A DNA stretch of 64,000 bases, taken from contig BOKP01000001.1 in NCBI GenBank assembly GCA_016861045.1, positions 1 through 64,000 of the forward strand. Reading direction: 5' to 3'. Below, one piece after another: positions 34,362-62,882 of this stretch (within the stretch, counting starts at the first letter, position 1; the number at the start of each line of letters is the position of its first letter). Both the position numbers and the translations under genes were made by a program. The notes beneath the pieces are model-generated. The model did no database searches, was not told where the DNA came from, and saw nothing but the letters and a program-made list of their open reading frames with translations. The stretch is from Actinomycetes bacterium (GTDB lineage Bacteria; Actinomycetota; Thermoleophilia; Solirubrobacterales; 70-9).

Positions 34362-35078
34362 ATGGCCGAGCCCGTTCCGGAGGACAACCTCGTCAAGCTG
34401 AACACGGCGCGGCGGCGGCAGGGGACGCTGGCGCGGATCCACGCCTACGGAGCGATCCTCGACGCGATCGTGCGGGCCGAGTTCGAGCCCGGCCGGCAGC
34501 TCTCGGAGAACGAGCTCGCGGCCTGGCTCGGGGTGAGCCGGACACCGGTCCGGGAGGCGCTCGCGCGCCTGCGCGAGGACGGGCTGGTCGAGATCGTCGC
34601 CCAGCTCGGGACGTTCGTGGCGCCGATCAGCCCGCGGGCGGTGACCGATGCCCAGTTCGTCCGCGAGGCGCTCGAGTGCGCCGCGGTCCGCAAGGCGGCG
34701 GAGCTGGCGACGACCGACGACATCGCCGCGCTCGAGGCGATCGTGCGCGACCAGCACCGCGCGGTCCGGGCCGGCGACCACGACGCTTTCTACGTCCTCG
34801 ACGACGACTTCCACCATGCCCTCTGCGACCTCAGCGGCCACAGCGCCGTCTGGAGCCTCGGGCAGCGGATCAAGTCGCACCTGAACCGGGTCCGCCGCCT
34901 CAGCCTGCCGGCGCCGAGCTACCTCGAGGAGATGGTCGGCGAGCACGAGCAGGTGCTCGCCGCGGTCGGGCGCAGCGACCCCGACGCGGCCGAGTCGGCG
35001 CTCCGCCACCACCTGCGGATGGTCCTGCGCGAGATCCCGCGGCTGCGGGAGCAGCGCCCCGAGTACTTCGACGAGTAG
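34362..35078 (+). CDS. GntR-family regulator (FCD/FadR type)
   Basis: The 238-residue protein has an N-terminal winged helix (ILDAIVRAEFEPGRQLSENELAAWLGVSRTPVREALARLREDGLVEI) and an FCD domain with metal-binding type residues (DDDFHHALCDLSGH, EHEQVLAAV, HH). It should be an acid-responsive repressor. No catabolic gene adjoins it on the same strand, so its target is unclear; the secreted cluster downstream is 145 bases away. Confidence 0.9.
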   Translation: MAEPVPEDNLVKLNTARRRQGTLARIHAYGAILDAIVRAEFEPGRQLSENELAAWLGVSRTPVREALARLREDGLVEIVAQLGTFVAPISPRAVTDAQFVREALECAAVRKAAELATTDDIAALEAIVRDQHRAVRAGDHDAFYVLDDDFHHALCDLSGHSAVWSLGQRIKSHLNRVRRLSLPAPSYLEEMVGEHEQVLAAVGRSDPDAAESALRHHLRMVLREIPRLREQRPEYFDE

Positions 35079-35223: not shown

Positions 35224-36669
35224 ATGAACCGTCCAGCCGTCCGCCTCCTCACCGCGCTGCTCGCGATCGCGATGCTCGCGGTACCCGCCTCGGCGCTCGC
35301 CGGCAAGGGCGGCAAGGGCAAGAACAAGGCGCTCGTGGTCTGCAAGCACGGCTGCAAGTACCGGACGATCCAGAAGGCGGTCGACAAGGCCGGGAAGACG
35401 AAGCAGAAGAACGACGTGATCGAGGTCAAGCCCGGCAAGTACGTCGAGGGCGTGATCGTCGAGGGCAAGAAGTACAAGGGCCTGACGATCAAGGGCACGA
35501 AGAAGAACGCCCGCAAGGTGATCCTCGAAGGCAAGAACGCCAAGGACCCGATCGGCAACCCGGCCAACAACGGGATCGAGATCATCGACGTCAAGGACGT
35601 CACGGTCAAGAACATGTGGGCCCGCAACTACCTGAACAACGGCATCTTCTGGCACGACACCAACACCGACGACAACAAGGCGACCTGCCAGAACCCGGTC
35701 GCCAAGAACGTCGACACCTCCTTCAACCGCAGCTACGGCCTGTTCATGTTCGGCTGCGAGGGCGGCGCCTTCAACGGCGGCGAGGGCTGGGGCCACGGCG
35801 ACTCGGCCTTCTACGTCGGCGCGACGCCGTTCCAGAAGAACCCGCAGAAGACGGTCCTGAAGAACCTCGAGGGCTACGAGAACATCCTCGGCTACTCCGG
35901 GACGAACTCGAAGTACGTCGTGATCAAGGACTCCGACTTCTACAACAACGGGATCGGGATCGTGCCGAACACGCTCGACTCGGAGCCGTTCGAGCCGAAC
36001 GCCGAGGGCGTGATCAAGGACAACAACATCTTCTGGAACAACTTCAACTACTTCCTGCCGGACTCGCGGGTCGAGCCGGTCGGCGGGCTCGGCGGGGGGA
36101 TCAACTACCCGACCGGGATCGGCGTCGCCCTGTTCGGCTCCGACGGCTGGAAGGTGACCGACAACGACATCTTCGGCAACTTCATGTGGGGCGTGGCGTT
36201 GTTCTCCGATCCGGTCGGCAACTGCGAGGGCCCGCCGAGCGACGGCTGCACGACCGGCGACGACGCGCTCAGCCAGAACAACCAGGTCACCGACAACGAC
36301 ATGGGCCGCGACGGCGCCGACACCAACGGGCATTACGACTTCTTCGTCGACGGCTCGGGGACCGGGAACTGCTTCGAGGGCAACGACACCTCGACGTTCG
36401 CCCCGGACGGGAGCCCGCCCGGCCCCGCCCACGCGACGGTCGGGCAGCTCTACCCGCCCTGCCCGGTCCCGGCCGGCACCCAGCCGAACCCGGGCGCGAC
36501 CGGAGACGTCTTCGGGACCCCCGGGCTGCAGTTCGGCGTTCTCTTCCCGTACGTGATCACCGATCCGCCCGAGAACCAGGAGTGCGAGTGGAACCAGCAT
36601 CCGCATCCGGCGTTCGGCGACTTCAAGCCGCTGGACGTGGAGCCCGGCCCGACCTGCCCGGTGACGTGA
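35224..36669 (+). CDS. Secreted right-handed beta-helix protein, Lys/Asn-rich
   Basis: The 481-residue protein has a signal peptide (LLTALLAIAMLAVPASALA), a Lys/Gly-rich start (GKGGKGKNKA), then parallel beta-helix repeats of pectate-lyase type (CKYRTIQKAVDKA, GLTIKGTKKNARKVILEG, GIEIIDVKDVTVKNMWARNYLNNGIF, VVIKDSDFYNNGIGI). Lysine is coded almost only by AAG. No lyase active site is evident. CAGGAG precedes the ATG. Stop overlaps the next start (TGATG). It heads a cluster with two cupredoxins and a copper oxidase. Confidence 0.85.
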   Translation: MNRPAVRLLTALLAIAMLAVPASALAGKGGKGKNKALVVCKHGCKYRTIQKAVDKAGKTKQKNDVIEVKPGKYVEGVIVEGKKYKGLTIKGTKKNARKVILEGKNAKDPIGNPANNGIEIIDVKDVTVKNMWARNYLNNGIFWHDTNTDDNKATCQNPVAKNVDTSFNRSYGLFMFGCEGGAFNGGEGWGHGDSAFYVGATPFQKNPQKTVLKNLEGYENILGYSGTNSKYVVIKDSDFYNNGIGIVPNTLDSEPFEPNAEGVIKDNNIFWNNFNYFLPDSRVEPVGGLGGGINYPTGIGVALFGSDGWKVTDNDIFGNFMWGVALFSDPVGNCEGPPSDGCTTGDDALSQNNQVTDNDMGRDGADTNGHYDFFVDGSGTGNCFEGNDTSTFAPDGSPPGPAHATVGQLYPPCPVPAGTQPNPGATGDVFGTPGLQFGVLFPYVITDPPENQECEWNQHPHPAFGDFKPLDVEPGPTCPVT

Positions 36670-37061
36670 TGCGGCGCCCGCTGACGATCGCCGCCGCCCT
36701 GGTCGCCTGCGTCGGCCTCGCGCTGACGCCGGCGGCGGGGGTCGCCGCGAAGACGAAGACGGTCCAGGTCGCCGACGACTACTTCGCGCCGACCAAGGTC
36801 ACCGTCAAGAAGGACGCGAAGGTCAAGTTCAAGTGGGATCCCGTGAACGGGAACCCCCACAACGTGACGATGAAGAAGGGCCCGAAGGGGGTCAAGAAGT
36901 CGAAGGCCTGCACCTCGGGCAAGATCACGAAGTGCAACAAGTCGGGGACCGGCGCGATCGGGATCAAGTTCACGCCGAAGTTCAACAAGAAGGGCAAGTA
37001 CAGCTTCGTCTGCACCGTTCATCCGACGACGATGAAGATGAAGGTCGAAGTCAAGAAGTAG
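36669..37061 (+). CDS. Secreted plastocyanin-like blue copper protein
   Basis: The 130-residue protein has a signal peptide and a cupredoxin domain with the type 1 copper ligands: His in NGNPHNV, Cys and His in FVCTVHP and a Met in TTMKMKVEVKK. It is very Lys-rich (pI high). It overlaps the beta-helix gene stop by TGATG, so the two are co-translated. Probably an electron carrier outside the membrane, likely partner of the oxidase downstream. Confidence 0.88.
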   Translation: MRRPLTIAAALVACVGLALTPAAGVAAKTKTVQVADDYFAPTKVTVKKDAKVKFKWDPVNGNPHNVTMKKGPKGVKKSKACTSGKITKCNKSGTGAIGIKFTPKFNKKGKYSFVCTVHPTTMKMKVEVKK

Positions 37062-37079
37062 CCCTGGGGTTGTGTCGAG

Positions 37080-38117
37080 GTGAGCCTGCCCCCGATCGGA
37101 CGGCGCGCGTTCGTCGCCGAGGCAGCCGGCGGCCTGCTCCTCTGCACGCTCGCGGGCAAGGAGTTCAGGCTCGACGAGCCGGCCGACGTCGAGAAGCTCG
37201 CGAGCGACCTGCCGGTGCCGCCGAAGGTGGCCGCCGCGCGGGCGAGCGGCGGGGCCGAGGCCGTGCTCGCGCAGTCCGGCGGCACGAACGAGTACTGGAT
37301 CCAGGCCGAGCAGGTGAAGTGGGACATCGTCCCCAACGGCCGCGACCAGATGATGGGCAAGCAGGTCAAGGGGAAGACGAAGTTCAAGGCGTACGCCTAC
37401 CGCGCCTACGCGCCGGGCTTCAGCGAGCCGCTCGGCCCGGCGAGGATCCCGGGGCCGCTGCTGGAGGCGAACGTCGGCGAGACGATCACCGTCCACTTCC
37501 GCAACAAGACCTCGACGCCGGTGACGATGCACCCGCACGGGGTCATGTACTCGGTCGACATGGACGGCGCCTACAAGGGCAAGTACACCGACCCCGGCGG
37601 GTTCGTCGAGAAGGGCGACGAGGTCACCTACGTCTGGGAGGCGATCCCCGAGGCGAAGGGCGCCTGGATCTACCACGATCACGGCCCGATGGACCCGCTG
37701 CCGCTCTACAAGGGCCTGCTCGGGCCGATGATCATCCGCGACCCGGGCGAGCCGCAGCCCGACCGCGACTTCTTCGTCGCCTTCCACTCGTTCCAGCCCG
37801 CGGCCACCGGCCTCAACCAGCCCTTCTACTGCGTCAACGGGCGCGCCTACGCCGGCAACACGCCGAGCTTCAAGGCCGCCGTCGGCGACGACGTCGCCTT
37901 CCACGTCTACGCCCTCGACGACTACTTCCACACCTTCCACATCCACGGCCACCGCTGGGCCGACTCGAGCGGGAGGATCGTCGACAACGTGACGACCGGG
38001 CCCGGTGACCTCGTGACCGTGCGGTTCACCGAGGACAACCCGGGCCGCTGGTTCTACCACTGCCACGTGTTCAGCCACCTGCACCAGGGGATGAACGGTT
38101 GGTACATCGTCGACTGA
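37080..38117 (+). CDS. Two-domain multicopper oxidase, likely Tat-exported
   Basis: The 345-residue protein has a twin-arginine-type start (PIGRRAFVAEAAGGLLL) and all four copper motifs: MHPHG, YHDHG, HTFHIHGH and HCHVFSHLHQGM, so type 1 and the trinuclear site are complete. Its size suits a two-domain (small laccase-like) enzyme that should work as a trimer. It reduces O2 while oxidising a metal, phenol or protein partner. GTG start. tatA and tatC lie just downstream. Confidence 0.88.
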   Translation: MSLPPIGRRAFVAEAAGGLLLCTLAGKEFRLDEPADVEKLASDLPVPPKVAAARASGGAEAVLAQSGGTNEYWIQAEQVKWDIVPNGRDQMMGKQVKGKTKFKAYAYRAYAPGFSEPLGPARIPGPLLEANVGETITVHFRNKTSTPVTMHPHGVMYSVDMDGAYKGKYTDPGGFVEKGDEVTYVWEAIPEAKGAWIYHDHGPMDPLPLYKGLLGPMIIRDPGEPQPDRDFFVAFHSFQPAATGLNQPFYCVNGRAYAGNTPSFKAAVGDDVAFHVYALDDYFHTFHIHGHRWADSSGRIVDNVTTGPGDLVTVRFTEDNPGRWFYHCHVFSHLHQGMNGWYIVD

Positions 38118-38821
38118 TCGGACCCGCCGCCCTCGCCCTGCTCCTGACCGCCGCCCTGCTCCTGCCGGCGGCGGCGGGCGCCGCCAACCGCCGGGTCTCG
38201 ATCAGCGACTACCGGTGGTCGATCCCCGACGTCGAGATCGACCGCGGAGAGCACGTCACCTGGTACTGGACCGGGCCCGACACGATGCACTCGATCACCG
38301 GTCAGCCGCCGAACGCGACCCAGTGGGACTCCGACCCGGGATCGCTGCCGAGCCACAACGTCGGCGACAGCTACCAGGTCAGCTTCGACGACCCCGGCGT
38401 CTACGAGTTCCAGTGCAAGATCCACTCGCTGGTCCGCGGGACCGTGACCGTCTCCGGCACGCCCGGCGACCCGGTCTCCGAGCCTGACCCGGTGCCGAAG
38501 AGCAACGTCGACCTGAAGCCGCCGAAGATGCGGCGGATCGCGTTGCCGCGCAAGTTCGGGCCGCGCGGCGCGCCGTTGACCTACTCGATGAACGAGCGCG
38601 GCAAGCTCGACGTCGAGTACTACCGCTACGGCCGCGGCGGCAGGCCCCGGTTCGCGGGCTATGCGACCTACAAGGCCCACGTCGGCTTCAACAACGCGCG
38701 GATCGGCAAGCGCAAGCCGCATTTCAAGCCGAGGCCGGGGCGGTACCTGGTCGAGCTCCGCGTCAGCGACCAGCAGCACAACACGGCGAAGGCGAAGAAG
38801 CGGGGATTCCGGATCTGGTAG
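38099..38821 (+). CDS. Second secreted cupredoxin with C-terminal extension
   Basis: The 240-residue protein has a signal peptide beginning from TTG at 38099 (VHRRLIGPAALALLLTAALLLPAAAGA), which overlaps the oxidase gene by 19 bases. The cupredoxin domain has His in DTMHSIT and Cys/His in FQCKIHSLVRG; the usual Met ligand position is not obvious. About 110 Lys/Arg-rich residues follow with no known fold. Likely works with the oxidase. Confidence 0.82.
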   Translation: MVHRRLIGPAALALLLTAALLLPAAAGAANRRVSISDYRWSIPDVEIDRGEHVTWYWTGPDTMHSITGQPPNATQWDSDPGSLPSHNVGDSYQVSFDDPGVYEFQCKIHSLVRGTVTVSGTPGDPVSEPDPVPKSNVDLKPPKMRRIALPRKFGPRGAPLTYSMNERGKLDVEYYRYGRGGRPRFAGYATYKAHVGFNNARIGKRKPHFKPRPGRYLVELRVSDQQHNTAKAKKRGFRIW

Positions 38822-38884
38822 CGGCTCGCCACCCGCACGGGTAGCGGCGGACGGCATGGGCCGGCCCCGCTACGATCAGCACCT

Positions 38885-39142
38885 ATGCCGAACATCGGTC
38901 CACTCGAGCTGGCGATCGTCGCGATCATCGCGCTGATCATCTTCGGCCCCAAGCGCCTGCCCGAGCTCGGCCGCTCGATCGGCGACGGCCTCCGCGAGTT
39001 CAAGGCCTCGGTCAGCGGCGAGCGTCGCGACGAGGACGAGGACGAGCCGCCGCAGATCGACGACGAGATCGAGGACGCCGAGCTGGCCGAGGACGAGGAC
39101 GCGGACGAGCCCGTCCGCGGCGCCGAGCGCAGCCCGTCCTGA
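38885..39142 (+). CDS. tatA: TatA/TatE twin-arginine translocase subunit
   Basis: The 85-residue protein has the single N-terminal helix and hinge (IGPLELAIVAIIALIIFGPKRLPELGRSIGDGLREFK) followed by a long acidic tail. It forms the pore of the Tat pathway. Confidence 0.95.
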   Translation: MPNIGPLELAIVAIIALIIFGPKRLPELGRSIGDGLREFKASVSGERRDEDEDEPPQIDDEIEDAELAEDEDADEPVRGAERSPS

Positions 39143-39183
39143 GCGCCCCGGTGGCGGCCGCCGACCGGGACCGGAGCTGACTC

Positions 39184-39966
39184 GTGGCGCGGATCAGGGC
39201 GGCGAGCTTCGACGACCGGATGACCCTGGTCGAGCACCTCGACGAGCTCCGCAGCCGGCTGATCTTCAGCGCGGTCGCGCTCGTGATCGTCGCCGCCCTC
39301 TGCTTCTGGCAGAACCACCTGCTGCTCGACATCGCCAACGCCCCGCTCCCCGACGACGTCGAGCCGCTCACCTTCTCGCCCTCGGAGCCGTTCCTGACGA
39401 CCCTGACCCTGACGCTCTACGGCGCGATCCTGCTGACCCTTCCGATCCTCCTCTACCACGCCTACGCGTTCGTCCTGCCGGCGCTGACGCCGACCGAGAA
39501 GAGGGTCCTGATGCCGATCCTGATCCTCGTCCCGGTCCTGTTCGTGGCCGGGGTCGTCTTCGCCTACTTCGTCGTCGTCCCGGCCGCGATCAAGTTCCTG
39601 CTGAACTTCAACGCCGACCAGTTCAACATCCAGATCCGCGCCCGCGAGTACTACAGCTTCTTCGCGCTGACGCTGATCTCGGTCGGGATCCTGTTCCAGA
39701 TCCCGATCGGGATCCTCGCCGTCACCAAGCTCGGCATCGTCACCCCCGCTCAGCTCGCGAAGAACCGCCGCTACGCGATCCTGATCATCGCCGTCCTGGC
39801 GATGCTGCTGCCGGGGACCGATCCGGTCACGATGCTGATCTCGATGCTGCCGCTGGTCCTGCTCTTCGAGCTCAGCCTGCTTCTCGCGCGGGCGCTCGGC
39901 AGGCCGTCGCGGAGCCTCCGCTCCGACCTCGAGCCGGCCGAGCCGCCGGTGGAATCGACCGGGTGA
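39184..39966 (+). CDS. tatC: TatC twin-arginine translocase subunit
   Basis: The 260-residue protein has the family start MTLVEHLDELRSRLIFS and six membrane helices with the conserved PALTPTEKR and the P-x-G-I-L segment. It binds twin-arginine signals. GTG start. No tatB is adjacent; TatA may serve both roles. Confidence 0.95.
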   Translation: MARIRAASFDDRMTLVEHLDELRSRLIFSAVALVIVAALCFWQNHLLLDIANAPLPDDVEPLTFSPSEPFLTTLTLTLYGAILLTLPILLYHAYAFVLPALTPTEKRVLMPILILVPVLFVAGVVFAYFVVVPAAIKFLLNFNADQFNIQIRAREYYSFFALTLISVGILFQIPIGILAVTKLGIVTPAQLAKNRRYAILIIAVLAMLLPGTDPVTMLISMLPLVLLFELSLLLARALGRPSRSLRSDLEPAEPPVESTG

Positions 39967-42133: not shown

Positions 42134-43084
42134 TCAGGCGCCCGGGCCGGTCGGGCGCCCGGCTTCGCGGGTCCGCCGCCCGAGCCGGGCGCGGACGATC
42201 GCCGCCGCCGCGTGCTCGTGGACGCGATGCGTCTCGGCGATCTCGACGTCGGTGAAGCCCGCCGCCTCGAGGCCCGCCGCGAACTGCTCGCGGGTCAGGG
42301 CTCCGGCGATGCAGCCCGTCCACTGCTCCATGTCGTCGCGCGTCCGCTCGTCCATGCCGGGGTCGGCGATGACGTCGCTGACCGCGAACCGGCCGCCCGG
42401 CCGGAGGACGCGGGCCGCCTCGGCGAAGACGCGCCCCTTGTCGGCGGAGAGGTTGATCACGCAGTTGGAGATGACGACGTCGACGGAGTCGTCCGGCAGC
42501 GGCACCTCCTCGATCGTCCCCTTCAGGAACTCGGCGTTGGCGACGCCGGCCTCGCGCCGGTTCGAGCGCGCGAGCTCGAGCATCTCGTCGGTCATGTCGA
42601 GGCCGTACGCCGTGCCGGACGGGCCGACGCGACGGGCGGAGAGGAGCACGTCGATGCCGCCGCCCGAGCCGAGGTCGAGGACGGTCTCGCCCTCCCGCAG
42701 CCCGGCGACGGCGGTCGGGTTGCCGCAGCCGAGCGAGGCTAGCTCCGCCGCCCCGGGCAGCTCCCGGCGCTCCTCGCCGTAGAGGCCGGCCCCGAACACG
42801 GCACGCTGCTCGTCGCTGATGACGTCCCCTCCGGCGCAGCAGGAGGCGTCCCTGCTCTCGACGCTCGCCGCGGCGGCGGCGTAGCGCTCGCGAACCCGTT
42901 CGCGGATCTCGCCCGCTTCGCCCGCTCCCGTCCCCGCCGCGCCCGCCGCCGGGCACCCGCAGGTGCCGGCCTCGTGCCCGGGCCCGCAGCACCCGTCCTT
43001 CTCCTCCGGCTCGCAGCAGCCCTCCCGCGCGGCGGGCGGGCAGCAGCCGCTCTCGCCGGTCGCGGCGGCGCCTAGCCCAGCCAT
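42134..43084 (-). CDS. arsM: Arsenite S-adenosylmethionine methyltransferase
   Basis: The 316-residue enzyme methylates As(III). It has VLDLGSGGGIDVLLSARRVG (SAM site), the conserved Cys in LGCGNP and ISNCVINL, and a DASCCAGG segment. Its N-terminus is unusual: SGCCPPAAREGCCEPEEKDGCC...TCGCP, four paired-Cys clusters that could hold arsenite. ATG at 43084 overlaps the arsR stop by 13 bases, so they form one operon. Confidence 0.92.
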   Translation of the reverse strand: MAGLGAAATGESGCCPPAAREGCCEPEEKDGCCGPGHEAGTCGCPAAGAAGTGAGEAGEIRERVRERYAAAAASVESRDASCCAGGDVISDEQRAVFGAGLYGEERRELPGAAELASLGCGNPTAVAGLREGETVLDLGSGGGIDVLLSARRVGPSGTAYGLDMTDEMLELARSNRREAGVANAEFLKGTIEEVPLPDDSVDVVISNCVINLSADKGRVFAEAARVLRPGGRFAVSDVIADPGMDERTRDDMEQWTGCIAGALTREQFAAGLEAAGFTDVEIAETHRVHEHAAAAIVRARLGRRTREAGRPTGPGA

Positions 43085-43425
43085 GTGGTCAGCTCCTCCA
43101 ATGCGTCGGGTTCGACGTAGTAGTAGGCCCACAGGCCGCGGCGCTCGGAGCCGACGATCCCGGCCTCGCGCAGCCGCTTCAGGTGGTGGGAGACGGTCGG
43201 CTGCGAGACGTCGAAGAGGGGGACCAGCTCGCAGACGCAGACCTTGCCGGCGTGCTTGCGGAGGACGTCGACGAGTTGCATCCGCACCGGGTCGCCGAGC
43301 GCCTTCGCGACGGCCGCGATCCGCTCCGCCGCGGCCGGCTCGATGTCGGGATGGACGACCGGATCACAGCACGGCTCGCCGGCCGGGCGCTTCGTCTTCG
43401 GGGCAAGATCGAGATCCAAAGCCAT
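43072..43425 (-). CDS. arsR: ArsR-family arsenic repressor
   Basis: The 117-residue winged-helix repressor has ALGDPVRMQLVDVLRKHAGKVCVCELVPLFDVSQPTVSHHLKRLREAG; the VCVCEL pair in the DNA-reading helix and N-terminal PCCDP are the likely As(III) ligands. ATG at 43425 is chosen; the extra 12 codons of the track run into the operator. It should repress arsR-arsM and the divergent gene. Confidence 0.93.
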   Translation of the reverse strand: MALDLDLAPKTKRPAGEPCCDPVVHPDIEPAAAERIAAVAKALGDPVRMQLVDVLRKHAGKVCVCELVPLFDVSQPTVSHHLKRLREAGIVGSERRGLWAYYYVEPDALEELTTWLG

Positions 43426-43435
43426 CCATTTACAT

Positions 43436-43454
43436 ATATCAATAGAGCTGATAT
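43436..43454. promoter_or_regulatory. ArsR operator in divergent promoter
   Basis: The inverted repeat atatca-N7-tgatat lies in a strikingly AT-rich stretch (catttacatatatcaatagagctgatatct region) between arsR and the divergent arsC-like start. ArsR proteins bind such ATCA-N-TGAT dyads. The dyad is seen; binding is inferred. Confidence 0.7.
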
Positions 43455-43478
43455 CTGTCAATGGAATATCCTGACGTC

Positions 43479-43856
43479 ATGAGCGAGGCGCGTCCGACGA
43501 TCCTCTTCGTCTGCGTTCGCAACGCGGGGCGTAGCCAGATGGCGGCCGCCCTGGCGCGGGAGCTCGCCGGCGAGCGGGTCGCGGTCTGCTCGGCCGGATT
43601 CGACCCGGCGGAGGCGTTCGGCCCGGCGGCGGCGGAGGCGATGGCCGAGGTCGGCATCGAACTCGGAGCGGCGGCGCCGAGGCTGCTCGAGACCGACGCC
43701 GTGCGCGCCGCGGACGCGATCGTCGCCGCGGCTCAGGCGGCGGCCCAGCCGCCGGCGCTCACCGCGCAGGGGCCGCCGCGATGGGCGAGGACGCGGGCGC
43801 CGGCGACGTCGAGAGCGATCGTGGCGAGCGTCGCCGAGCGCCACCCGGCCGGCTGA
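43479..43856 (+). pseudogene. Truncated arsenate reductase (LMW phosphatase type)
   Basis: The first 84 residues match thioredoxin-type ArsC of the low-molecular-weight phosphatase family, with the active loop VCVRNAGRSQMA (CxxNxGRS-type). The C-terminal Cys-containing loop and DPAG region are missing; from about 43731 the frame reads across the end of the opposite C45 peptidase gene. ArsC needs those residues, so it is probably inactive. I infer a deletion or insertion junction. Confidence 0.7.
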
Positions 43857-59873: not shown

Positions 59874-60902
59874 ATGAGGACCAAGGTGAAGCGGACCAGG
59901 GCCGTCGGCGCCGGCCTGCTGGCGGCGCTGCTGGCGGCGCTGCTGGTGGCCTGCGGCGGCGATGACTCGACCGACGGCACGTCGGCGGACGACTCCGGCG
60001 CGCCGACCGAGGTGGCGATCGGCACGACGACCTGGATCGGCTACGGGCCGCTCTGGATCGCCGACGACCAGGGCTTCGACCTCGACAACGGCGTCGACAT
60101 CAAGATGGTCAACTTCACGACCGACCAGGACCTCGAGTCCGGGTACGCCGGTGGCAAGTTCCAGGGGTTCAGCATCGCCACCAACAACCAGATCCGCCTC
60201 GCCGACCTCGACATCGACTTCGAGGTGGTGCTGATGGAGGACTTCTCGCTGACCGCCGACTCGATCGTCTCCTGCAACCCGCAGATCAAGTCGATCGACG
60301 ACCTCGCGGGCGCCAAGGTGGCGTTCGAGGAGCTCTCCGTCTCCGACCTGCTGCTCCGCTACGCGCTCGAGCAGGCAGGGATCGGCTTCGACGAGATCGA
60401 GTACGTACCGATCCCGGCGGCCGACGCCGGCACCGCCGCGGTCGCGGGCAAGGTCGATGTCGCCGTCACCTACGAGCCCTACCTGCAGGCGGCGCTCGAC
60501 GAGGGCGACGACTGCAAGATCATCTTCTCGGCCGAGGAGCGGCCGGGCCTGATCTCCGACCCGCTCAGCTTCAGCCCCGACTTCATCGAGTCGAACCCGG
60601 ACGCGGTCGTCGGCGTGCTTCGGGCCTGGGATGACGCGGTCGAGTTCTACAACTCGAACACCGAGGAGGCGCAGGCGATCGTCGCCGAGGCGGTCGGCGA
60701 GAAGCCCGACGCACTGGCCTCGAGCTTCGACGGCATCAAGCTGTTCAGCCTCCAGGAGTCGCAGGACTTCCTCGAGAACGACTTCGTGCCGCTCTGGGAC
60801 GACATCGGCCAGATCATGGTCGACCAGGGACAGATCGAGGAGGTTCCGGACGCCGAGGACCACCTGAACACCGACATGGGCCAGCAGGCCCTCGAGGGGT
60901 GA
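59874..60902 (+). CDS. ABC transporter substrate-binding lipoprotein 1 (NMT1/SsuA-like)
   Basis: The 342-residue lipoprotein has lipobox LVACGG, then VAIGTTTWIGYGPLWIADDQGF and CNPQIKSIDDLAGAKVAFEELSVSDLLLRYALEQAGI, typical of NMT1/SsuA-type binding proteins for sulfonates, pyrimidine or aromatic compounds. The same-length paralogue follows directly. Confidence 0.92.
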   Translation: MRTKVKRTRAVGAGLLAALLAALLVACGGDDSTDGTSADDSGAPTEVAIGTTTWIGYGPLWIADDQGFDLDNGVDIKMVNFTTDQDLESGYAGGKFQGFSIATNNQIRLADLDIDFEVVLMEDFSLTADSIVSCNPQIKSIDDLAGAKVAFEELSVSDLLLRYALEQAGIGFDEIEYVPIPAADAGTAAVAGKVDVAVTYEPYLQAALDEGDDCKIIFSAEERPGLISDPLSFSPDFIESNPDAVVGVLRAWDDAVEFYNSNTEEAQAIVAEAVGEKPDALASSFDGIKLFSLQESQDFLENDFVPLWDDIGQIMVDQGQIEEVPDAEDHLNTDMGQQALEG

Positions 60903-60986
60903 TCGACGGGACCGCGATGGAGGATGGGCGCGGCTTGCGCCGGAGTGCCCAATGAAGACCAGTCACACCAACACGAAGGGAACCCA

Positions 60987-62015
60987 ATGGAGGTCAAGGT
61001 GAAAGGGATCAGAGCCCTGGGGGCAGGACTTCTGACGGTGCTGGCGGCGGCGTTGCTCGCGGCCTGCGGCGGCGACGATTCCACCGACGGCACGTCGGCC
61101 GATGGCGCGCCGACCGAGGTGGCGATCGGGACCCAGCCGTGGATCGGCTACGGCCCGCTGTGGGTCGCCGACGATCAGGGGTTCGACCTCGACAACGGCG
61201 TCGACATCAAGATGGTCAACTTCTCGACCGACCAGGACCTCGAGTCCGGGTTCGCGAGCGGCAAGTTCCAGGCGGCGAGCAACGCGAACAACACGTACAT
61301 CCGCCTCGCCGATCTCGGCATCGATTACGAGATCACGCTGATGGAGGACTTCTCGCTGACCGCGGACGCGATCGTCTCCTGCAACCCGCAGATCAAGTCG
61401 ATCGACGACCTCGAGGGCGCGAGCGTCGCGTTCGAGGAGTTCTCGGTCTCCGACGTGCTGTTCCGGTACGCCCTGAACGAGGCCGGCATCGATTTCGACT
61501 CGATCGACTACTCGCCGATCCCGGCCGCGGACGCCGGCACGGCTGCGGTCGCCGGTCGCGTCGACGTCGCGGTGACCTACGAGCCGTACCTGCAGGCCGC
61601 CATCGAGGAGGGCGACAACTGCAAGATCATCTACACGGCCGAGGAGCGGCCGGGGCTGATCTCGGACGCGCTCGCGTTCACCCCCGACTTCGTCGAGTCG
61701 AACCCCGACGCGGTGATCGGCGTGATGAAGGCCTGGGACGACGCGGTCGACTTCTACAACTCGAACCCCGACGAGGCGCAGGCGATCATCGCCAAGGCGG
61801 TCGGGGAGAAGCCCGACGCGCTCGGCCCGAGCTTCGAGGGCGTCAAGCTGTTCGACCTGCAGGAGTCGCAGGACTTCCTCGAGAGCGACTACGCGACGCT
61901 CTGGGATGACATCGGCCAGATCATGCTCGACCAGGGCCAGATCAAGGAGGTCCCGGACGTCAACGACTACCTGAACACCGAGATCGGCGCCGAGGCGCTC
62001 GGGTCCTCGGAGTAG
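60987..62015 (+). CDS. ABC transporter substrate-binding lipoprotein 2
   Basis: The 342-residue protein is a close paralogue of the previous one (shared FDLDNGVDIKMVNF, EDFSLTADAIVSCNPQIKSIDDL, IPAADAGTAAVAG) with lipobox LAACGG. ATG 60987 has GAAGGG upstream; the longer track start is rejected. The duplication may widen the substrate range for one permease. Confidence 0.92.
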   Translation: MEVKVKGIRALGAGLLTVLAAALLAACGGDDSTDGTSADGAPTEVAIGTQPWIGYGPLWVADDQGFDLDNGVDIKMVNFSTDQDLESGFASGKFQAASNANNTYIRLADLGIDYEITLMEDFSLTADAIVSCNPQIKSIDDLEGASVAFEEFSVSDVLFRYALNEAGIDFDSIDYSPIPAADAGTAAVAGRVDVAVTYEPYLQAAIEEGDNCKIIYTAEERPGLISDALAFTPDFVESNPDAVIGVMKAWDDAVDFYNSNPDEAQAIIAKAVGEKPDALGPSFEGVKLFDLQESQDFLESDYATLWDDIGQIMLDQGQIKEVPDVNDYLNTEIGAEALGSSE

Positions 62016-62021
62016 GAGCCG

Positions 62022-62882
62022 ATGGCGGAGGCGATCAGCAAGACACCGGAGGCCGGGGCCCCGAAGCGGGCCCCGGCCGGCCGGCCTGCCGGGAAGCGGC
62101 GCCGCAAGCTCGCCGGGATCTTCGACCCGATCGAGCCGCGGACGTACATGATCATCGCGCTGCTCTCGTTCGCGGTGCTGTTCTTCGGCTGGTGGGTCGC
62201 GGCCGAGATCGACCTCGCCAAGGACATCTTCCTGCCGAGCCCGGCCGACGTCTGGAACCGCGGCGTCGAGCTGGCCAAGGACGGGACGCTCTGGGCCGAC
62301 GTCAAGGTCAGCTTCGTCCGGATCACGATCGGCTTTCTGATCTCGACCGCGATCGCGCTGCCGATCGGGATCGCGATCGGCACCTACCGGCTCGCCGAGG
62401 CGGCGATCGAGCCGCCCGTGGACTTCATCCGCTACATGCCGGCGGTCGCGTTCCTGCCGCTGACGATCGTCTGGGTCGGCGTCGACGAGAGCCAGAAGTG
62501 GCTCATCATCTTCATCGGCACCTTCTTCCAGCAGGTGCTCCTGGTCATGGACAACGTCAAGCGCGTCCCCCGCGAGTACGTCGACATCAGCCACACGCTC
62601 GGGATGCGCGACCACTCGGTGCTGCGGAAGGTGGTCCTGCCGGCGGCGGCGCCGGCGATCTGGGACACGCTGCGGATCACGCTCGGCTGGGCCTGGACCT
62701 GGCTCGTGATCGCCGAGCTCGTCGCCGCGTCCGACGGCCTCGGGCACCGGATCATCGTCGCCCAGCGCTACTTCCAGACCGACACGATCTTCGTCGGGAT
62801 CCTCGTCATCGGCCTCCTCGGCCTGATCATGGACCAGATCATGAAGTACACCGGAAAGCGGATCTTCAGGTGGGCGGAATGA
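62022..62882 (+). CDS. ABC transporter permease (SsuC/TauC type)
   Basis: The 286-residue membrane protein has about six helices and the cytoplasmic EYVDISHTLGMRDHSVLRKVVLPAAAPAIWD loop (EAA motif) that contacts the ATPase. It starts six bases after the second binding protein. Confidence 0.93.
   Translation: MAEAISKTPEAGAPKRAPAGRPAGKRRRKLAGIFDPIEPRTYMIIALLSFAVLFFGWWVAAEIDLAKDIFLPSPADVWNRGVELAKDGTLWADVKVSFVRITIGFLISTAIALPIGIAIGTYRLAEAAIEPPVDFIRYMPAVAFLPLTIVWVGVDESQKWLIIFIGTFFQQVLLVMDNVKRVPREYVDISHTLGMRDHSVLRKVVLPAAAPAIWDTLRITLGWAWTWLVIAELVAASDGLGHRIIVAQRYFQTDTIFVGILVIGLLGLIMDQIMKYTGKRIFRWAE

Follow-up and report, generated by a model that had tools for sequence, protein, structure and literature searches.

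Four adjoining genes in an actinobacterial genome of the order Solirubrobacterales encode a right-handed beta-helix protein, a cupredoxin (CUP1), a two-domain multicopper oxidase (MCO) and a second cupredoxin (CUP2), and together they make up one conserved exported copper module whose linkage is kept throughout the order. The genes lie in a window of 64,000 nucleotides, the term being used here for the whole stretch of DNA that was analysed. It is very probable that the four genes form a functional unit and that the tatA and tatC genes which follow them are incidental. Each part belongs to a known kind, and no description of their combination was found in the open-access literature searched.

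The layout is compact. Four genes for exported proteins that overlap or nearly touch, followed by tatA and tatC, had been reported in the preliminary description, and all six are found so on the forward strand (Table 1). The stop codon of the beta-helix gene and the start codon of CUP1 have one base in common (TGATG, 36669), the gap from CUP1 to MCO is 18 bp, MCO and CUP2 overlap by 19 bp, and 63 bp separate CUP2 from tatA. The shared base and the 19-base overlap make translational coupling probable within these two pairs. Pfam families are recognised above cut-off in both cupredoxins (Copper-bind), in MCO (Cu-oxidase_2 and Cu-oxidase_3), in TatA and in TatC. The clustering of the four genes is not a matter of chance, since four of the six Copper-bind domains in the 2.7 Mb genome sit within two copies of the module.

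Table 1. Positions in the window of the module genes, their motifs and the flanking genes
Feature	Position	Strand	Basis or conservation
Right-handed beta-helix protein, predicted to be exported, 481 aa	35224..36669	+	kept throughout the order
Beta-helix N-terminal part, residues 27-130, basic and Lys-rich (23% Lys, net +16)	35302..35613	+	composition
CUP1, basic blue-copper cupredoxin, plastocyanin-like, 130 aa	36669..37061	+	Copper-bind match
CUP1 type 1 copper loop C115-x2-H118-x3-M122, plus H64	37011..37034	+	each ligand 23/23
MCO, two-domain multicopper oxidase, 345 aa, GTG start	37080..38117	+	Cu-oxidase_2 and Cu-oxidase_3 matches
MCO twin-arginine motif GRRAF, residues 7-11	37098..37112	+	RR 35/35
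MCO domain 2 copper ligand stretch HCHVFSHLHQGM, residues 327-338, type 1 site and trinuclear ligands	38058..38093	+	ligands invariant, n=35
CUP2, cupredoxin with second beta-sandwich domain, 240 aa, TTG start	38099..38821	+	Copper-bind match and model
CUP2 copper loop C106-K-I-H109-S-L-V112, Val at the place of amicyanin's axial Met	38414..38434	+	alignment
GntR/FCD-type regulator, upstream, inserted together with the module in genus g1	34362..35078	+	
tatA, neighbour only, outside the module	38885..39142	+	TatA family match
tatC, sole copy in the genome, neighbour only, outside the module	39184..39966	+	TatC family match

Within the order, a match to the beta-helix protein at E <1e-35 is present in 49 of 101 genomes (the window's own and 100 relatives; hand count). 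A search for the same gene order in other genomes had been proposed as a check on the cluster, and it finds the order beta-helix, CUP1, MCO, CUP2 recurring across the window's own family, often with an extra cupredoxin in genus g10. Two other families of the order have a three-gene form (MCO, beta-helix, cupredoxin) that lacks CUP2, which indicates that CUP2 is not essential. A scan of a genome collection yielded 80 loci, with both MCO and the beta-helix in 66; contig ends truncate 12 of the remaining 14, and in the other two (L103 and L105) MCO was missed by the start filter, CUP2 being seen past the gap and the MCO of L103's genome being found separately. The titles of these 80 loci name Solirubrobacterales or its genera and families, Thermoleophilia, Actinobacteria, unplaced bacteria and four Bifidobacterium breve metagenome-assembled genomes (MAGs). 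The last (L129, L134, L139 and L159) are lake-type MAGs with a Solirubrobacterales module, and their titles are probably wrong. Named carriers include Solirubrobacter soli, Conexibacter arvalis and Paraconexibacter antarcticus. The window's genome holds a second copy of the module (L032) at ∼432-436 kb.

Two further protein families were encountered around these loci. In genera g10 and g11, ten loci carry next to the beta-helix a conserved protein of lipoprotein-like type with some resemblance to thioredoxins (FATPALCQSRVCGP; for instance L040:7526-8542, L048:7350-8369 and L038:11177-12262), for which Pfam has no family. The order also has another family of two-domain oxidases (L168-L173), 41-44% identical to the window MCO, which occurs without an adjoining beta-helix; a weak cupredoxin stands alongside only in L171.

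The preliminary description had coupled the cluster to its own Tat exporter, and had named a chance neighbourhood of the Tat genes as what would speak against it; for the Tat part, chance neighbourhood is what was found. The genome has a single tatC, and no extra tatA or tatC travels with the module. In eight relatives that share the family but not the genus, the run preA-dcd-tatA-tatC continues directly into the next gene, with no module in it. Only in genus g1 (the window, G001 and G002) do the GntR gene and the module stand between dcd and tatA; outside this genus the module is located away from tatC, and the second copy in the window's genome has no Tat genes alongside. The MCO tree groups the three tat-linked copies (98/96) and places the genome's second copy as their sister (100/99). 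The simplest reading of the tree is that a duplication took place at genus level, one copy landing beside tatA, so that the adjacency to Tat would reflect a single module copy placed between dcd and tatA in genus g1. A superoxide dismutase-like gene is found near copy 2, as it is near several genus g10 modules, which suggests, without proving it, that copy 2 has kept the older site of the module. The same-strand adjacency shared by three genus g1 genomes and the Tat-type start of MCO would fit a dedicated exporter; given the sole tatC, the intact Tat locus of the relatives and the position of the module elsewhere, such a role is extremely improbable.

The association of a beta-helix protein with a cupredoxin extends beyond the order. 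Searches with the beta-helix profile in 397 genomes from the phylum and 299 from the class revealed a second tier beyond the order's strong matches, with E values of ∼1e-25 to 1e-76. Forty second-tier loci were read, 34 outside the class and six inside it. A cupredoxin is encoded in the same ORF in 17 of the 34 out-of-class loci and within 2 kb in a further 12 (29 in total; hand count), a count biased towards detection because the cupredoxin profile was partly seeded from these loci. As controls, the same profile detected no cupredoxin in 209 kb of Tat loci, and none was found beside the six in-class beta-helix paralogues. Nine of the 34 out-of-class loci (hand count) also show a two-domain oxidase scoring 55 bits or more. 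Copper-bind and Beta_helix are recognised by Pfam in one ORF for L210, L213 and L217. The fused or adjacent cupredoxin in other classes identifies the cupredoxin and the beta-helix as the durable unit, and the fusions argue that the two are a functional pair.

Residues of the beta-helix were compared with a set of eight paralogues, the six in-class ones together with the out-of-class loci L222 and L238, which were picked by appearance and because no cupredoxin accompanies them. The cupredoxin-linked groups retain N228, P248, N249 and E254, residues that are mostly not conserved in the eight paralogues, a contrast that is suggestive but not independent. In L208-L214 and other out-of-class loci, GQCxxC, with two cysteines, stands where Solirubrobacterales have GQTPxQ or GATPFQ.

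The AlphaFold2 model of the beta-helix protein has a mean pLDDT of 85.7. The nearest solved folds are right-handed beta-helix enzymes, namely alginate epimerases (including AlgE4) and pectin methylesterases, with only 13-14% identity to the nearest epimerases; the likeness to AlgE4 and the pectin methylesterases is one of fold only, and the partners of the window protein are copper proteins. A PDB search with its sequence returned chance-level matches only, and its profile gave weak matches, in the N-terminal part, to pectinesterases and an alginate lyase. In the domain-family scan the protein has only a pectinesterase match below the cut-off, confined to residues 37-96, and an identity as pectinesterase was rejected. 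Judged by eye from the model's strand list, many invariant residues appear to lie on successive turns of one face. NosD and the TIGR03805 family are also exported right-handed beta-helix proteins, but the window protein matches TIGR03805 only remotely (44.8 bits, below the cut-off of 141.5), has no Pfam NosD (PF05048) match at E 0.001, and has no NosFY recognised alongside.

Unusual lysine content had been ascribed to the beta-helix protein and the first cupredoxin. This is borne out for mature CUP1 (25% Lys, net +21) and for the N-terminal part of the beta-helix (Table 1), but not for beta-helix residues 131-481, which are acidic (net -29) with 2.8% Lys; other nearby genes have ∼1-5% Lys. As a defining trait of the module, lysine richness was discarded: it is lineage-specific, the cupredoxin 1 of relatives ranging from 1.9 to 21.5% Lys, with basic charge being usual. 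The acidic beta-helix body and oxidase of the window species stand against a basic CUP1. In genus g10 (L046-L053), the cupredoxin domain is preceded by Lys/Cys-rich extensions such as KALKKCKKIKKASKRRACIKRVNKRF, and comparable Lys-rich stretches come before the beta-helix. One such stretch, used as query, turned up in three g10 genomes, where it is confined to module loci or their immediate neighbourhood; it is absent from the window's genome.

CUP1 has a full set of type 1 ligands (His, Cys, His and Met, each invariant) and a Copper-bind score of 46.4 bits. The same H-C-H-M set characterises the amicyanin/plastocyanin family, from which CUP1 is set apart by its lysine content. In CUP2 the His, Cys and His ligands are present in 24/24 sequences, and the axial place, Met in amicyanin according to the alignment, is occupied by Val in 23 of the 24. 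It therefore fails the full type 1 set and has a variant type 1 site, with Copper-bind above cut-off. Azurin mutants that have lost the axial Met show a high redox potential, and by analogy CUP2, whose copper site lacks this Met, is expected to have a high potential. In the model of CUP2 a cupredoxin is followed by a second beta-sandwich, a domain that distinguishes it from amicyanin and plastocyanin; the matches of its cupredoxin portion are to amicyanin, plastocyanin and the Nitrosopumilus purple cupredoxin.

MCO consists of two cupredoxin domains (Cu-oxidase_3 and Cu-oxidase_2) with no third. H151, H153, H199, H201, H284, H287, H289, H327, C328, H329, H333 and M338 are invariant (n=35), and the ligand set is that of a complete type B, small-laccase-like enzyme: type 1 His/Cys/His/Met in domain 2 together with the trinuclear histidines. 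By its domains and ligands MCO is most simply assigned to the type B two-domain oxidases, which would imply a trimer with a copper cluster at its interfaces and with oxidase activity. The twin-arginine start reported previously is confirmed, as an RR-x-F-hydrophobic motif ahead of a hydrophobic stretch with RR present in every relative, and from this motif MCO is predicted to be exported as a Tat substrate. Cys22 (37143-37145), which lies in the hydrophobic stretch of the Tat-type signal, is kept in 34/35 relatives. A role for it as lipoprotein anchor was rejected, the preceding residue being bulky (L, F, V, I, M or Y) and leaving no canonical lipobox.

In a PDB search with MCO, the single-stretch matches are two-domain laccases (∼1e-33), from residue 101-113 on, and those to ceruloplasmin and factor V are broken into several pieces, of which some start at residue 70. 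The small laccases SLAC and CjMCO have the same two cupredoxin domains, domain 2 type 1 set, trinuclear histidines and export signal. The window MCO differs from them in its constant beta-helix and cupredoxin partners and in an N-terminal segment whose alignment with ceruloplasmin and factor V starts near residue 70. K2-type small laccases, which occur in Solirubrobacterales and Thermoleophilales, resemble the window MCO in being two-domain and laccase-like and in coming from the same order; the study describing them mentions no plastocyanin, cupredoxin or beta-helix partner (PMC9296663). As a group they lack the 15-residue flap that K1 enzymes have.

The likeliest reading of the module, though a tentative one somewhat short of an even chance, is an extracytoplasmic copper redox system in which the beta-helix would be the platform and the cupredoxin the relay. 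Candidate substrates are phenolics or humics, a metal ion or a polysaccharide. The broader proposal, only just short of an even chance, is that a cupredoxin-bonded beta-helix family, spread over several Actinomycetota classes, exchanges electrons with a trimeric two-domain oxidase. MCO would leave the cytoplasm via the cell's ordinary Tat translocon and, as a type B trimer, reduce O2 to water. CUP1 would shuttle electrons between MCO and a reductant on or near the conserved beta-helix face, with CUP2 as a putative second relay. The beta-helix would serve as docking platform for the cupredoxin, a polymer substrate or both, a role that we infer from fold similarity and from the conserved face of the model, and its basic N-terminus may partly hold it at the surface. 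The redox platform has points against it: the charge pattern differs among relatives, CUP2 is missing from the three-gene form, the cupredoxins could deliver copper instead of electrons, and the beta-helix, being alginate epimerase-like, may itself be an enzyme.

If copper were what the cupredoxins deliver, they and the beta-helix could act like NosD, loading copper into MCO or keeping it soluble. NosD is a periplasmic beta-helix protein serving nitrous oxide reductase, itself an exported multicopper enzyme, and provides a precedent; in addition, the distant fused relatives L210 (24.7 bits) and L217 (24.1 bits) score just over the NosD cut-off of 23.6. The uncharacterised K2 small laccases carried by Solirubrobacterales proved insoluble on expression by themselves (PMC9296663), which bears on this reading provided that the window MCO is K2-type. 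Copper loading is nevertheless unlikely, since the window beta-helix has no NosD match, no NosF or NosY transporter was recognised adjoining the beta-helix in the neighbours examined, and CUP1 has the complete blue-copper site typical of electron carriers.

An enzymatic or binding role of the beta-helix would turn the module towards polymers: the beta-helix would be active on or bind polysaccharide, MCO would be a laccase for plant phenolics, and the cupredoxins would be secondary. The fold neighbours of the beta-helix and the two-domain laccase matches of MCO are compatible with such an attack, as is the uptake of 13C-lignin by Solirubrobacterales (PMC9296663). A 2026 study, however, reports that a type B two-domain enzyme is slow on lignin and doubts efficient lignin attack as the role of one bacterial two-domain oxidase (PMC13151041). 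With an epimerase likeness confined to the modelled fold, and with the cupredoxin left unexplained as the most constant partner of the beta-helix, polymer attack is improbable. The same study mentions detoxification or metal homeostasis as suggested roles of other type B enzymes (PMC13151041), and the alignment of MCO with ceruloplasmin and factor V points in a similar direction: MCO would be a surface oxidase of Cu(I), Fe(II) or Mn(II), with the cupredoxins and beta-helix as metal binders. Neither the window nor the scanned neighbours show a recognised copper- or iron-handling gene beside the module, and metal oxidation or copper detoxification is distinctly improbable.

Elsewhere in the window, positions 42134-43856 encode a methyltransferase with a Cys-rich N-terminus, an ArsR-type regulator and, on the opposite strand, a low-molecular-weight phosphatase-like gene, which together look like an arsenic gene set. 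Positions 59874-62882, a stretch of lower G+C, hold two tandem sulfonate-type ABC substrate-binding proteins and then a permease.

The constant genetic partners found here for a bacterial two-domain copper oxidase are candidate redox partners of that enzyme. The same constancy is a reason for co-expression where the enzyme alone fails, and the named carrier strains make the module accessible to testing.
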